Assembly (NCBI RefSeq): GCF_019297855.1
Contig: NZ_CP079194.1
Location: 669,501 to 733,500 of the forward strand
Direction of reading: 5' to 3'
Length of the DNA stretch: 64,000 nt
Origin: Gymnodinialimonas ceratoperidinii
GTDB lineage: Bacteria > Pseudomonadota > Alphaproteobacteria > Rhodobacterales > Rhodobacteraceae
The position numbers were made by a program, and so were the translations under genes. How positions within the stretch are numbered: the stretch's first letter is position 1; every line of letters begins with the position of its first letter. Positions 20,188 through 37,880 of the stretch are shown piece by piece. The notes beneath the pieces were generated by a model, which did not search any database, was not told where the DNA came from, and was given only the letters and a program-made list of their open reading frames with translations.

Positions 20188-20225
20188 TGGAACGTTCCAA
20201 AACGGCTGCAAATAGGAACGTTCCA
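20188..20225 (+). promoter_or_regulatory. Tandem LacI-type operators before catabolic operon 1
   Basis: TGGAACGTTCCA (20188-20199) and AGGAACGTTCCA (20214-20225) share the perfect 10-bp palindrome GGAACGTTCC. The centres are 26 bp apart. The second ends 16 bases before the ATG of the Gfo/Idh gene, a position that would block transcription or initiation. The same palindrome lies before operon 2 at 30674. A central CG in a 10-16 bp palindrome is the mark of LacI-family operators. Confidence 0.8.
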
Positions 20226-20241
20226 ATAAGCGGAGAATGCC

Positions 20242-21234
20242 ATGCGGTGGGGATTGATCGGGGCCAGCACGATTGCAGCAGAGCACATGATCGGCGCGAT
20301 CCGCGCGTCGGGTGGTGAAACCGCCACGGTGCTCAGCTCCAGCGCCGAGCGCGCCGCGAGCTACGCCGCCGAGCACGGGATCGCCAAGGGCGTGACCGAT
20401 CTCGACGCCGCAATGGAGGACGTCGATGCCGTCTACATCTCCACCACGAACGAGAAGCACCTGCCTCAAGCCATGGCCGCGATCAAGGCGGGCAAGCACG
20501 TGCTCTGCGAGAAGCCCCTGGCGATGAGCGTCGCGGATGCCGTCACCATGGTAAAGGCGGCCGAGGCGAAGGGCGTGACCTTCGGCACCAACCACCACCT
20601 GCGCAACGCGGGCAGCCACCTCGCGATCCGCGAGCTGATCGAGACGGGCCGCATCGGCAAGGTGCTCTCGGTCCGCGTCTTCCACGCCGTTCACCTGCCG
20701 CCGCACCTGCAGGGCTGGCGCATCGACAACCCGGCCGCGGGCGGTGGGGTGATCCCGGATATCACTGTCCATGACGCCGACACCGTGCGTTTCCACCTTG
20801 GCGAGGATCCTGCCGAGGTCGTCGCGATGAAAAGCGCCTCGGGGATGGGGCAGGGGGTCGAGGACAGCGCCATGTCGGTCTGGTCCATGCCCTCGGGCGT
20901 GATGGTTCATACCCACGAAAGCTTCACCCACCCCCATGCCGGCTCGGGCATCGAGGTGCATGGCACCGAAGGCTCGATCATCGCGCGGGGCGTGATGACG
21001 CAACAGCCGGTGGGCGAGGTCACGCTGCGCCACGGGGGTGGCGAGCAGGCGGTCGAATATGCGACCCACGGGCTCTACGACCGCGCGGTGGATCTCTTCA
21101 CCCGCGCCTGCATGGGCGAGGGCCGGCCTTCCGCCGATGGCGTCGATGGGGTCAAATCCCTCGCCGTGGCCGAGGCTGTCTCCAAGGCTGCCGAAACCGG
21201 CACCCGCACGGCGGTCGATTATGGCGGGGTCTGA
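20242..21234 (+). CDS. Gfo/Idh/MocA-family NAD(P)-dependent oxidoreductase
   Basis: A 330-residue dehydrogenase. The N-terminal Rossmann motif is [13 protein letters not shown], the hallmark EKP motif is in [11 protein letters not shown], and the substrate-domain motif [18 protein letters not shown] holds the Asp-x3-His pair typical of the family's catalytic site. Members oxidise sugars, inositols or derived acids at a hydroxyl carbon. It is first in an operon with CoA-transferase, enoyl-CoA hydratase and aldehyde dehydrogenase genes and lies directly under two LacI-type palindromes. CGGAGAA gives the ribosome binding site. Substrate unknown. Confidence 0.9.
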
Positions 21235-21235
21235 G

Positions 21236-35646: not shown

Positions 35647-35655
35647 GCATTGAGC

Positions 35656-36660
35656 ATGAGCCGCCGACCCACCATTCTGGACGTCGCCGCCCGCGCGGGC
35701 GTGTCGAAATCCACCGTCTCTCTGGTGCTGCAGAATTCTGCGCAGGTGAAGGCCGAGACCCGCGAGGCGGTGCGCGCGGCGATGGCCGAGATCGGCTACG
35801 TCTACAACCGCGCAGCGGCGCAGATGCGCTCGCAGACCGCGGGCCTCGTCGGGCTGGTGATCAACGACCTGCGCAACCCCTTCTTCACCGAGTTTGCCAC
35901 GGTCCTGCAGATGACGCTGGCGGCGAAAGGCTACGCCACGGTGATCGCCAACAGCGACGAGGACCCGGACCTGCAGGCCAAGCTCATCGGCTCGATGATC
36001 GAGCACGGGGTGTCGGCCCTCGTGGTCTCGCCGGCCTATGACGACGCGGGCGATGCCTTCGACCAGATCGCGCGCGCCGGCATCCCCGCGATGCAGGTGC
36101 TGCGCAAGACCGACCCGCGCACCGGCCTGTTTCCCTTCGCCTCCTTCGACTACGCGGCAGGCTCCGCCCTGGCCACCCGGCACCTGCTGGATCAGGGCGC
36201 GAAGCGTATCGCCTTCGTCGGCGGCATGGAGGGCCGCGCCATCACCGAGGAGCGCAAGTCGGGCTACCTCGCCGAGCTCAAACGCGCCGGCATCGCGCCC
36301 TTCACGCACCACGGCCGCAGCTCCCGCGCCTTCGGGGTGGAGGCCGTCAACAACCTGCCCGACGACGTCGACGCAGCGGTCTGCTTCAACGACCTCGTGG
36401 CCCTCGGAATGTTGTCGGGCTTCGCCCGCGCAGGCGTCGAACTTGGCCGCGATTTTCGCCTCGTGGGCTTCGACGACATCGAAGACTGCGCGCAGGTCTG
36501 GCCGCTGGTCTCCTCGATCGGCTGCGATATCGAGAGCTTCGCCCAAGATGTCGCCGACGGGCTTCTCGCCTGGATGCAGACCGGCGAGACCCCGCCCCCC
36601 GAACACCGCGCCCCGGTCGAGCTGATCGCGCGCACCTCCAGCACGGGAACGATAGATTGA
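35656..36660 (+). CDS. LacI-family transcriptional regulator 2
   Basis: A 334-residue repressor: helix-turn-helix TILDVAARAGVSKSTVSLVL (residues 5-24, recognition helix KSTVSL), hinge helix YVYNRAAAQMRSQTAG, then the effector domain (VGLVINDLRNPFFTEF, VAFVGGMEGRAITEERKSGY split, GFDDIEDC). A TTG two codons earlier is rejected. It lies inside operon 2, and its recognition helix differs from that of regulator 1 (VATISR). It is the best candidate for binding the GGAACGTTCC sites before operons 1 and 2, which would make it autoregulated. Its stop overlaps the next start. Confidence 0.92.
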   Translation: MSRRPTILDVAARAGVSKSTVSLVLQNSAQVKAETREAVRAAMAEIGYVYNRAAAQMRSQTAGLVGLVINDLRNPFFTEFATVLQMTLAAKGYATVIANSDEDPDLQAKLIGSMIEHGVSALVVSPAYDDAGDAFDQIARAGIPAMQVLRKTDPRTGLFPFASFDYAAGSALATRHLLDQGAKRIAFVGGMEGRAITEERKSGYLAELKRAGIAPFTHHGRSSRAFGVEAVNNLPDDVDAAVCFNDLVALGMLSGFARAGVELGRDFRLVGFDDIEDCAQVWPLVSSIGCDIESFAQDVADGLLAWMQTGETPPPEHRAPVELIARTSSTGTID

Positions 36661-37880
36661 CCGAAATGGACTTCCTGAGAGACCTGTTCGATCGCGCCGT
36701 CCGGGTCGCCGACCCGATGCAATCGCTCGCCCAAGCCCTGCCGCCCAAGCCCGAGGGGCGCGTGGTGGTGATCGGCGCCGGCAAGGCCAGCGCGCGAATG
36801 GCCGAGGCGGTGGAGGCCGAATGGGGCCCCTGCGAAGGGCTCGTCATCACCCGCTACGGCTATGCCCGCCCCTGCGAGGGGATCGAGATCATCGAGGCCG
36901 CCCATCCGGTTCCGGACGCTTCCGGCGTCGCGGCGACGCAACGGATGCTGGCGCTGCTCGATACGCTCCGCGAGGAAGATTTCGTCCTCGCGCTGATCTC
37001 GGGCGGCGGCTCGGCCCTGCTCTGCGCGCCCGTGGCCGGCGTCACGCTGGCCGAGAAGCAGGGGCTAACGGCGGAACTGCTGGCCTCCGGCGCGCCCATC
37101 GGCACGATCAACGGCATCCGCAAGGAAATCTCCGCCGTGAAGGGCGGGCGGCTCGCGGCCGCAGCCCATCCGGCGCGGATGCTGGCGCTGATGATCTCGG
37201 ACGTGCCGGGCGACGATCCCGGTGACATCGCCAGCGGACCGACCGTTGGCTGCGATAGCGACGCCGCGCGCGCCTTGGCGGAACTGGAGCGCTGGGGCGT
37301 CACCCCGGCGGCCAGCATCCAGCGCTACCTTGAGCGTGGCGGTGATCCGCTGCGCCCGGATGATCCAAGGCTCTCACGGGTGGAGAATGTCATCTACGCC
37401 GCCCCCTCCCAATCCCTTGCCGCAGCGGGTGAGCACGCCTGCACATCCGGCTACACCGTTGAAATGTTAGGAGATTCCATCGAGGGTGAGGCGCGCGACG
37501 TGGCCCGCGCCCATGCCGAGATCGCCCTCGAGGCGGCGCCCGGCACGGTGATCCTCTCGGGCGGCGAGCTGACCGTCACGCGCCGGGGCGCGGGGGTCGG
37601 CGGGCCCAATGCGGAATACGCGCTGGCCCTCGCGTTGGCGCTGGACGGCGCGAAGAACATCTACGCGATTGCCTGCGACACCGACGGCGTGGACGGCGCG
37701 GCGGAGGTCGCGGGCGCGCTCATCGGGCCGGACACCCTTGCCAAGGCCACCACGCTCACACCGCAATATGCGCTCGACACCAACGATGCCCACAGCTTCT
37801 TCGCATGGATCGGCGATCAGGTCGTGACCGGCCCCACCCTGACCAACGTCAACGATTTCCGCGCCATTCTGGTGACCTGA
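36657..37880 (+). CDS. Glycerate 2-kinase (MOFRL family, GckA type)
   Basis: A 407-residue protein of the GckA/TtuD-like glycerate kinase family, which makes 2-phosphoglycerate from D-glycerate and ATP. Visible hallmarks are VVIGAGKASARMAEAVE, the ALISGGGSALLCAP nucleotide-binding loop, KEISAVKGGRLA with the catalytic Lys, ISDVPGDDPGDIASGPTV, and the C-terminal MOFRL segment with GGELTVTRRGAGVGGPNAE. A TTG at 36657 overlaps the lacI stop; an ATG at 36666 is an alternative start. As the last gene of operon 2 it suggests that glycerate (or a hydroxypyruvate relative) is a pathway product channelled into lower glycolysis. Confidence 0.92.
   Translation: MTEMDFLRDLFDRAVRVADPMQSLAQALPPKPEGRVVVIGAGKASARMAEAVEAEWGPCEGLVITRYGYARPCEGIEIIEAAHPVPDASGVAATQRMLALLDTLREEDFVLALISGGGSALLCAPVAGVTLAEKQGLTAELLASGAPIGTINGIRKEISAVKGGRLAAAAHPARMLALMISDVPGDDPGDIASGPTVGCDSDAARALAELERWGVTPAASIQRYLERGGDPLRPDDPRLSRVENVIYAAPSQSLAAAGEHACTSGYTVEMLGDSIEGEARDVARAHAEIALEAAPGTVILSGGELTVTRRGAGVGGPNAEYALALALALDGAKNIYAIACDTDGVDGAAEVAGALIGPDTLAKATTLTPQYALDTNDAHSFFAWIGDQVVTGPTLTNVNDFRAILVT

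Follow-up and report, generated by a model that had tools for sequence, protein, structure and literature searches.

A 64,000-nucleotide stretch of the Gymnodinialimonas ceratoperidinii genome (NZ_CP079194.1, positions 669,501–733,500 of the forward strand; genome of 3,621,968 bases), called the window here, carries two catabolic operons that are preceded by the same palindromic operator and almost certainly form one regulon and one pathway. Operon 1 encodes a Gfo/Idh oxidoreductase (GfoA), a fused coenzyme A (CoA) transferase (CoAT), an enoyl-CoA hydratase family protein (ECH) and an aldehyde dehydrogenase (ALDH). Operon 2 encodes two GMC flavoenzymes (GMC-a and GMC-b), an SDR, a DUF993 protein, the regulator LacI-2 and a glycerate 2-kinase. 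The regulon, under LacI-2, may serve to take up a glucose-shaped sugar, most likely a 1,5-anhydrohexitol, and to break it down oxidatively, a reading whose chances as a whole fall just short of even. What the sequence itself shows is the operator common to both operons and how it is conserved, the families of the enzymes, the fold of DUF993 and the exchange of one enzyme module for another.

The operator has an exact 10-base core, GGAACGTTCC, which is present three times in the window against 0.12 expected, a count reached by none of 100 shuffled sequences. These three copies are the only ones in the whole genome and every one stands before the two operons; the reversed version of the core pattern occurs 30 times in the same genome. 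The exact 12-mer TGGAACGTTCCA has a genome count of two, at 20188 and 30674. The original prediction had placed the palindrome, or a one-base variant, before each operon. The exact core bears this out, but operon 1 is preceded by two tandem sites, 26 bp apart, and loose matching is uninformative because counts with up to two mismatches (4 in the window, 2.06 expected, 4 reached in 19 of 100 shuffles) are no better than those of shuffled sequence. Likewise, the 5.6 kb that was said to separate the operons is the correct distance, but this stretch belongs to the same system: it consists of LacI-1 and the complete ABC transporter 2 (ABC-2), a transporter that accompanies the operons in relatives.

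Conservation was followed in 129 DUF993 loci taken from ten plasmid records, named GTDB contigs (best 80 of 582 relatives) and 39 of the 80 DUF993-bearing genomes of the order; locus counts are lower bounds, as close relatives are non-independent and many stretches end early. Of these loci, 67 have the window's arrangement (type A); type B accounts for 44, type D for 12, and six are of other kinds. The recurrent order of type A is Gfo/Idh, CoA-transferase, ECH, ALDH, ABC transporter, GMC, SDR, GMC, Dabb, DUF993, LacI and glycerate kinase, which forms a single collinear run in some species (Peteryoungia); in rhizobia, DUF993 is divergent from the LacI and Gfo/Idh genes. ALDH is seen in 57 of the 67, ECH in 54, CoAT in 52, GfoA in 48, GMC-a, GMC-b and SDR in 44 each, the Dabb gene in 31 and glycerate kinase in 26. 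The core precedes an operon gene in 35 of the 45 type-A loci in which the sequence upstream of the first gene is covered (36 of 67 overall), in 10 of 11 of the A' clusters described below, in 4 of 5 partial type-A loci and in 1 of 14 type-D loci; it does so in none of 44 type-B, two Escherichia coli and seven other loci. Adjacent sites lie 21–30 bp apart, with 17 of 25 pairs at 21–23 bp. Among 320 palindromes of like composition in 3.0 Mb of loci, the core ranks commonest, with 92 occurrences against 40 for the next and a median of 2. A chance sharing of the palindrome by two unrelated operons, for which the ordinary number of two-mismatch matches in the window might speak, is excluded by the confinement of the core to this region of the genome, its recurrence in relatives and the collinearity of the operons in one cluster there.

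The arrangement has the features of a LacI-family local regulon: a palindrome with a central CG before the target operons, a regulator gene in the cluster and conservation across genomes. The operator is present in Mesorhizobium loci where LacI-1 is not seen (L037, L038), and a LacI gene with LacI-2 as its best match is found in 65 of 67 type-A loci (about 40% identity in rhizobia). Therefore, LacI-2 is the likely reader of the GGAACGTTCC operator. LacI-1 may have its site in a TGAAACGTTTCA-type palindrome; TGAAACGTTTCA precedes the same transporter in two relatives (L134 and L148) and resembles the window's site at 26176. The window holds two AACGTT-centred palindromes between LacI-1 and ABC transporter 2 (26176–26189 and 26305–26318), both possible LacI-1 sites.

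Co-inheritance was surveyed in 390 genomes of the order, of which 80 have DUF993, with adjacency taken as within 25 kb. By identity, the operon-1 CoA-transferase falls into a close class (at least 76%, 59 genomes), a second class (59–64%, 22 genomes) and distant proteins elsewhere (at most 44%). DUF993 is found anywhere in the genome in 47 of the 59, in 22 of the 22 and in 1 of 25 genomes with the distant class only, and 13 DUF993 genomes have neither of the two closer classes. The whole-genome figure (47 of 59) overstated adjacency; a recount by place, with 25 kb as the limit, puts DUF993 beside the CoA-transferase in 40 of 59 close-class and 22 of 22 second-class genomes, and it left the probabilities given here unchanged. 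The operons thus co-occur, as the claim of one regulon and one pathway demanded, and their shared operator is unique in the genome.

The 12 of 59 genomes without DUF993 keep most of the cluster and are called A' here. In the stretches covered, SDR, DUF993 and glycerate kinase are each absent from all 12, and a second Gfo/Idh and a 690-residue SdhA-like flavoprotein are present, with a PfkB kinase in 5 of 12 that is closest to KdgK in the three tested (L167, L170, L199). This flavoprotein and the close CoA-transferase are at most 25 kb apart in 13 of 59 genomes; both modules are found there in none and neither in six, four of which (G013, G050, G156, G191) are draft assemblies with the genes on different contigs. 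A search of the 390 genomes with the flavoprotein (E 1e-100) returned 14: these 12, G303, which has DUF993 on another contig, and G382. When 82 CoA-transferases are placed on a tree, those of the flavoprotein clusters do not group together but imply seven changes, at least six of them forced by well-supported branches; tree labels follow the stretch covered, so that L169 and L177 are unlabelled though the flavoprotein was found further on. A Rhizobium flavoprotein cluster (L199) is nested among DUF993-bearing rhizobia with support of 100/99. As no stretch contains both and the tree implies repeated swaps, the DUF993 and flavoprotein modules appear to be exchangeable and to have, in all probability, an intermediate in common as their substrate. 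GfoA of the 1,5-anhydrofructose reductase (AFR) type is carried by 43 of 46 DUF993-only genomes and by 3 of 12 flavoprotein-only ones.

The DUF993 protein was originally singled out as a family of no known function. No literature on the function of DUF993 (PF06187) was found in open-licence sources, and the one structure found, 4dnh, is of an uncharacterised member. That member (SMc04132) may belong to a type-B locus, going by its neighbours' names in PMC12542648. Structure comparison of a model gives the DUF993 fold as the dihydrodipicolinate-synthase (DHDPS) TIM barrel, at 11–18% identity in structural alignments, with the keto-deoxy-galactarate dehydratase 4ur7 among the matches. Lysine K228, on strand 224–230 of the model (strand 6), is invariant in 36 of 36 sequences. 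In fold and strand-6 lysine DUF993 is like the DHDPS/N-acetylneuraminate lyase (NAL) superfamily, but it is about 90 residues longer and is without the G-T-T-G-E motif. DUF993 is probably a Schiff-base enzyme, and retro-aldolase activity is favoured, though by less. A glycerate kinase (at least 40% identity) accompanies DUF993 in 29 examined loci and is found in no locus without it, in line with the suggestion that glycerate is a likely product.

An anhydrohexitol, either 1,5-anhydroglucitol (1,5-AG), in which the reactive end usual in sugars is missing, or 1,5-anhydrofructose (1,5-AF), stands an even chance of being the substrate. The ABC-2 binding protein shares 61% identity with Oant_3817, whose structure was solved with glucose, and 42–45% with the glucose/galactose-binding proteins of Pseudomonas putida and Pelagibacter. 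GfoA groups with proteins named 1,5-AF reductase: its Sinorhizobium meliloti orthologue (60%) is annotated 1,5-anhydro-D-fructose reductase, so that the likeness to the characterised enzyme is by annotation. Together these findings weaken the polyol or cyclitol first proposed. The reductase of Sinorhizobium morelense is a Gfo/Idh protein (structure 2GLX; PMC5969746) reported to turn 1,5-AF into 1,5-anhydro-D-mannitol (PMC12441222, section 5.1). The characterised enzyme is defined by NADPH-dependent reduction of 1,5-AF to 1,5-anhydromannitol. The published account ends with the reductase and an unassigned following step, whereas GfoA sits in a regulon with GMC, ALDH, CoA and DUF993 enzymes. GfoA and GMC-a homologues also pair, with an MFS transporter and without CoA enzymes, in Bradyrhizobium (L204; 56% and 59%) and Arthrobacter (L205; about 43%), a pairing that suggests oxidation and then re-reduction at one carbon.

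In S. meliloti the cluster adjoins leuB (L203) and corresponds to SMc04389–SMc04402 by gene count from leuB (SMc04405), an assignment that the names of SMc04390–SMc04392 in PMC12542648 fit. In one growth medium, a phbC phaR strain had less of these three proteins than a phbC strain (PMC12542648). SMc04396, by gene count the orthologue of the ABC-2 binding protein (SBP2), is reported as dextrin-induced (PMC4960864), and SMc04401, by gene count LacI-2, is tabulated as a regulator (PMC4560400).

In the mechanism proposed here the enzyme families are observed and all else is inferred. ABC-2 would import the sugar, GMC-a would oxidise 1,5-AG at C2 to 1,5-AF, and GfoA would reduce 1,5-AF to 1,5-anhydro-D-mannitol, with C2 inverted. 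GMC-b and ALDH would oxidise C6 to an acid (C6H10O6), which the CoA-transferase would turn into a thioester. ECH could then eliminate the 4-hydroxyl, which is beta to the thioester, to give an enol ether, and hydration at C5, for which the hydratase, the Dabb protein or a spontaneous reaction are candidates, would open the ring. The open product would be D-2-keto-3-deoxygluconate (a 2-keto-3-deoxyhexonate, C6H10O6), to be cleaved by DUF993, as a class I aldolase, to pyruvate and D-glyceraldehyde; the latter would be oxidised and phosphorylated by glycerate 2-kinase to 2-phosphoglycerate. In the sister clusters the flavoprotein, the second Gfo/Idh and sometimes the KdgK-like kinase would act instead of the DUF993 module.

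The atom balance of this scheme closes, and a Fischer check gives the D-gluco configuration from the mannitol epimer alone; this would account for the reductase forming mannitol instead of glucitol. Both ECH glutamate motifs, searched as loose patterns, match widely (77 and 78 of 79 loci). There is precedent for the chemistry in the dehydration of carnitine by CaiB and CaiD and in the hydration of unsaturated uronates by unsaturated glucuronyl hydrolase. The order of steps is addressed by type B, of which L006, L010, L013 and most Bradyrhizobium loci are examples. These 44 of 129 stretches have DUF993 without a CoA-transferase and, in all but one, without a hydratase; they carry another Gfo/Idh (44 of 44, the defining trait), an AP-endonuclease-type isomerase (41 of 44), an enolase-superfamily protein (31 of 44) and transporters of the TTT, NMT1 or sugar kind. 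This weakens the earlier idea that the CoA enzymes act on a fragment released by DUF993, and fits CoA-dependent dehydration before cleavage better than after it, although it does not prove that order. The CoA ring-opening route is somewhat less likely than not. Slightly more doubtful still is the full proposal, in which the cluster is the missing aerobic 1,5-AG/1,5-AF pathway, with C2 epimerisation, C6 oxidation, CoA-assisted ring opening and DUF993 as a new keto-sugar-acid aldolase exchangeable for the flavoprotein–kinase module.

A number of observations weigh against the anhydrohexitol scheme. In the CoA step water would be added to the alpha carbon, where an ordinary hydratase does not place it, and the SDR, the Dabb protein and the A' flavoprotein with its second Gfo/Idh have no step in the route. 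The glucose-family binding protein may take plain glucose or galactose. GfoA is missing from 9 of the 12 flavoprotein-only clusters, and type D, type B and the E. coli clusters carry trunk genes without it; the trunk is therefore wider than anhydrofructose. Ten of the 45 type-A loci with upstream sequence covered lack the exact operator, and two genomes (G021, locus L179; G087, locus L178) have a close-CoAT stretch with neither DUF993 nor flavoprotein, DUF993 being elsewhere in another setting. The KdgK match of the A' kinase is below the NCBIfam cut-off (230–250 of 400 bits), and in one A' cluster a class I fructose-bisphosphate aldolase comes after the kinase, in keeping with a ketose phosphate rather than 2-keto-3-deoxy-6-phosphogluconate (KDPG). 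For DUF993 itself, K228 aligns with the DHDPS-family lysine in a six-row family alignment with a weak profile match (probability 18%, E 0.0013), and comparison with one DHDPS sequence gave nothing useful. The G-T-T-G-E motif after strand 2 is the pyruvate-binding motif of the DHDPS/NAL family; DUF993 has D-T-[AS]-Q-R there, with the first threonine (T81) kept. The PF00701 profile had no DUF993 match at E 0.001, where solely PF06187 was reported; DUF993 is therefore said to work like, and not to belong to, the PF00701 enzymes, and with the altered motif a pyruvate-type substrate is not assured.

Of the two strongest competitors, both unlikely, one is plain glucose or galactose oxidation by a CoA-dependent relative of the non-phosphorylative Entner-Doudoroff pathway. 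In it, GMC-a would form the aldonate, CoAT and the hydratase would convert it to the keto-deoxy acid, and DUF993 and glycerate kinase would finish. The glucose family of the ABC-2 binding protein, the glucose dehydrogenase closest to GMC-a, the archaeal glycerate 2-kinase models closest to the kinase, the aldolase fold of DUF993 and the KdgK-like kinase of the sister clusters all suit it. However, GfoA, GMC-b and the SDR would be superfluous, yet are retained, GfoA groups with proteins named 1,5-AF reductase, and a CoA route would be odd given that gluconate dehydratases are common. Given the same low probability is that DUF993 is another Schiff-base enzyme, a dehydratase, decarboxylase or epimerase, and that glycerate comes from elsewhere. 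The dehydratase 4ur7 among the fold matches, the altered pyruvate motif and the swap of DUF993 for a flavoprotein are consistent with this, but glycerate kinase is seen solely alongside DUF993 in the examined loci and is gone where DUF993 is swapped.

Somewhat less probable is the earlier version, in which a polyol, cyclitol or unusual sugar is oxidised and DUF993 yields a C3 acid and a fragment later made into a CoA thioester. The gene set, the tracking of DUF993 by glycerate kinase and the acyl-CoA dehydrogenase of type D, whose best NCBIfam match in L141 is acryloyl-CoA reductase and which would suit a C3 acyl-CoA, argue for it; type-B stretches with DUF993 and no CoA-transferase, and clusters with CoA-transferase and hydratase but no DUF993, argue against. 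The 12 type-D loci (for example L200, Sagittula p7; L201, S. meliloti pSymA; and L136–L141) have SDR in 12, isomerase in 11, CoAT in 10, ECH and ALDH in 9 each, GMC-b in 7 and glycerate kinase in 2, and the well-annotated ones also carry aldo-keto reductases and the acyl-CoA dehydrogenase, some of them together with MaoC, Dabb, cupin or ETF genes.

Improbable, but in print and so a further point against the anhydrohexitol scheme, is the route given for Rhizobiaceae (S. morelense), in which 1,5-anhydromannitol, the product of the reductase, becomes mannose through C1 hydroxylation by a P450-like enzyme (PMC12441222, section 5.1); the rest of the cluster would then serve another sugar. The same section calls the hydroxylating enzyme still unidentified, and GfoA, GMC-a, CoAT, ECH and ALDH stand in one conserved cluster behind one operator. 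Other routes were dropped. A 3-hydroxypropionate or acrylate route (ECH is closest to 5zai, and type D has the acyl-CoA dehydrogenase) leaves the sugar genes unexplained, and phenylpropanoid side chains would not account for operons without aromatic genes. AP-endonuclease-type isomerases belong to the levoglucosan and 3-ketoglucose routes and occur in types B and D and E. coli, with none in the window operons. A deoxyribonate-type route needs a DUF849 enzyme, and there is none here.

Compared with known systems, the proposed pathway shares its substrates with the anaerobic breakdown of 1,5-AG by a phosphotransferase system (PTS) and the glycyl-radical enzymes YbiW/PflD (PMC12441222, section 5.1). 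That route is phosphorylated, oxygen-sensitive and uses other enzyme families, whereas the cluster here is oxidative; a scan of the operon proteins, to which this search was confined, found no PTS kinase or glycyl-radical lyase. With the non-phosphorylative Entner-Doudoroff route it has in common sugar oxidation, a DHDPS-fold aldolase, aldehyde oxidation and glycerate 2-kinase; it differs in its CoA-transferase and crotonase and in a DUF993 protein outside PF00701, and no usual gluconate (sugar acid) dehydratase was found among the operon proteins scanned.

A related cluster lies between ytfB and rplI in E. coli (L197:4155–13938, L198), with TetR, SDR, isomerase, ECH, CoA-transferase, SdhA-like flavoprotein and TRAP transporter genes. 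It has the same trunk families, and its flavoprotein is 54–55% identical to the one that replaces DUF993, but it is without GMC, ALDH, Gfo or DUF993. Matches to the stretch of five trunk enzyme genes are present in 3133 of 5426 complete E. coli genomes and span 80% or more of its length in 3094 of them, and no function for the cluster was found in the open-licence literature. The TRAP transporter suggests an acid substrate, of the kind that the window pathway might make.

Family scans confirmed the gene families originally named, at the positions given; the Dabb gene after operon 2 had been missed. The features are collected in Table 1. ABC transporter 1 is a second sugar ABC transporter of the region. 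Its ATPase gene stands ahead of the Gfo/Idh gene in all 7 of the other loci of the same genus (L126–L132); it was not seen there in loci of other genera with about 1–2 kb of upstream sequence (e.g. L133, L134, L147, L153). Further upstream, a gene at 8006–9091 resembles a Rieske-type oxygenase by its motifs, with an ABC transporter nearby (10750–13916); both are outside the regulon as far as seen.

Table 1. Features of the two operons and their surroundings, in window coordinates.
Feature	Position	Strand	Description
ABC transporter 1	15196-20171	+	Binding protein 15196-16488, two permeases, ATPase 19098-20171; directly upstream of operon 1
Operator copy 1, TGGAACGTTCCA	20188-20199		Exact motif
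Operator copy 2, AGGAACGTTCCA	20214-20225		One-base variant of TGGAACGTTCCA
GfoA, Gfo/Idh oxidoreductase	20242-21234	+	60% to S. meliloti protein annotated 1,5-anhydro-D-fructose reductase
CoAT, fused family I CoA-transferase	21236-22822	+	Closest solved relative YdiF
ECH, enoyl-CoA hydratase family	22819-23583	+	Both glutamate motifs present
ALDH, aldehyde dehydrogenase	23585-25105	+	Family match
LacI-1	25084-26127	-	Family match; probable local transporter regulator, from palindrome at 26176
Palindrome TTCAAACGTTTCAA	26176-26189		Between LacI-1 and ABC transporter 2; possible LacI-1 site
ABC transporter 2, complete	26352-30625	+	Binding protein 26352-27614, glucose-binding family, 61% to 4r2b (glucose bound)
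Operator copy 3, TGGAACGTTCCA	30674-30685		Exact motif
GMC-a, small GMC flavoenzyme	30705-32177	+	Closest solved relatives glucose dehydrogenase (6a2u) and fructose dehydrogenase
SDR	32174-32884	+	PRK12745 '3-ketoacyl-ACP reductase' family, score over cut-off
GMC-b, choline-dehydrogenase-like GMC flavoenzyme	32893-34479	+	Primary-alcohol oxidation predicted
DUF993 protein	34483-35646	+	PF06187, E 4e-176; DHDPS-fold barrel, predicted Schiff-base lysine K228
LacI-2	35650-36660	+	Predicted cognate regulator of GGAACGTTCC operator
Glycerate 2-kinase	36657-37880	+	DUF4147 + MOFRL; closest models archaeal glycerate 2-kinase
Dabb (A/B barrel) protein	38033-38341	+	PF07876; after operon 2

According to a 2025 review (PMC12441222), no oxidative 1,5-anhydroglucitol pathway had yet been reported. 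As the original prediction supposed, no account of the present pathway was found in the open-licence literature, and RegPrecise may catalogue LacI regulons of this kind (PMC4052901). The result is a conserved regulon for which no description was found in that literature, and the substrate proposed for it is specific and open to test, with about an even chance of being right. To our knowledge, CoA-dependent ring opening of a sugar acid would be new chemistry in carbohydrate catabolism. PF06187, present in 80 of 390 genomes of the order, becomes a testable aldolase with a defined set of partners and a predicted inducible promoter and, if the assignment is true, the cluster names candidate genes for the oxidative breakdown of 1,5-AG.

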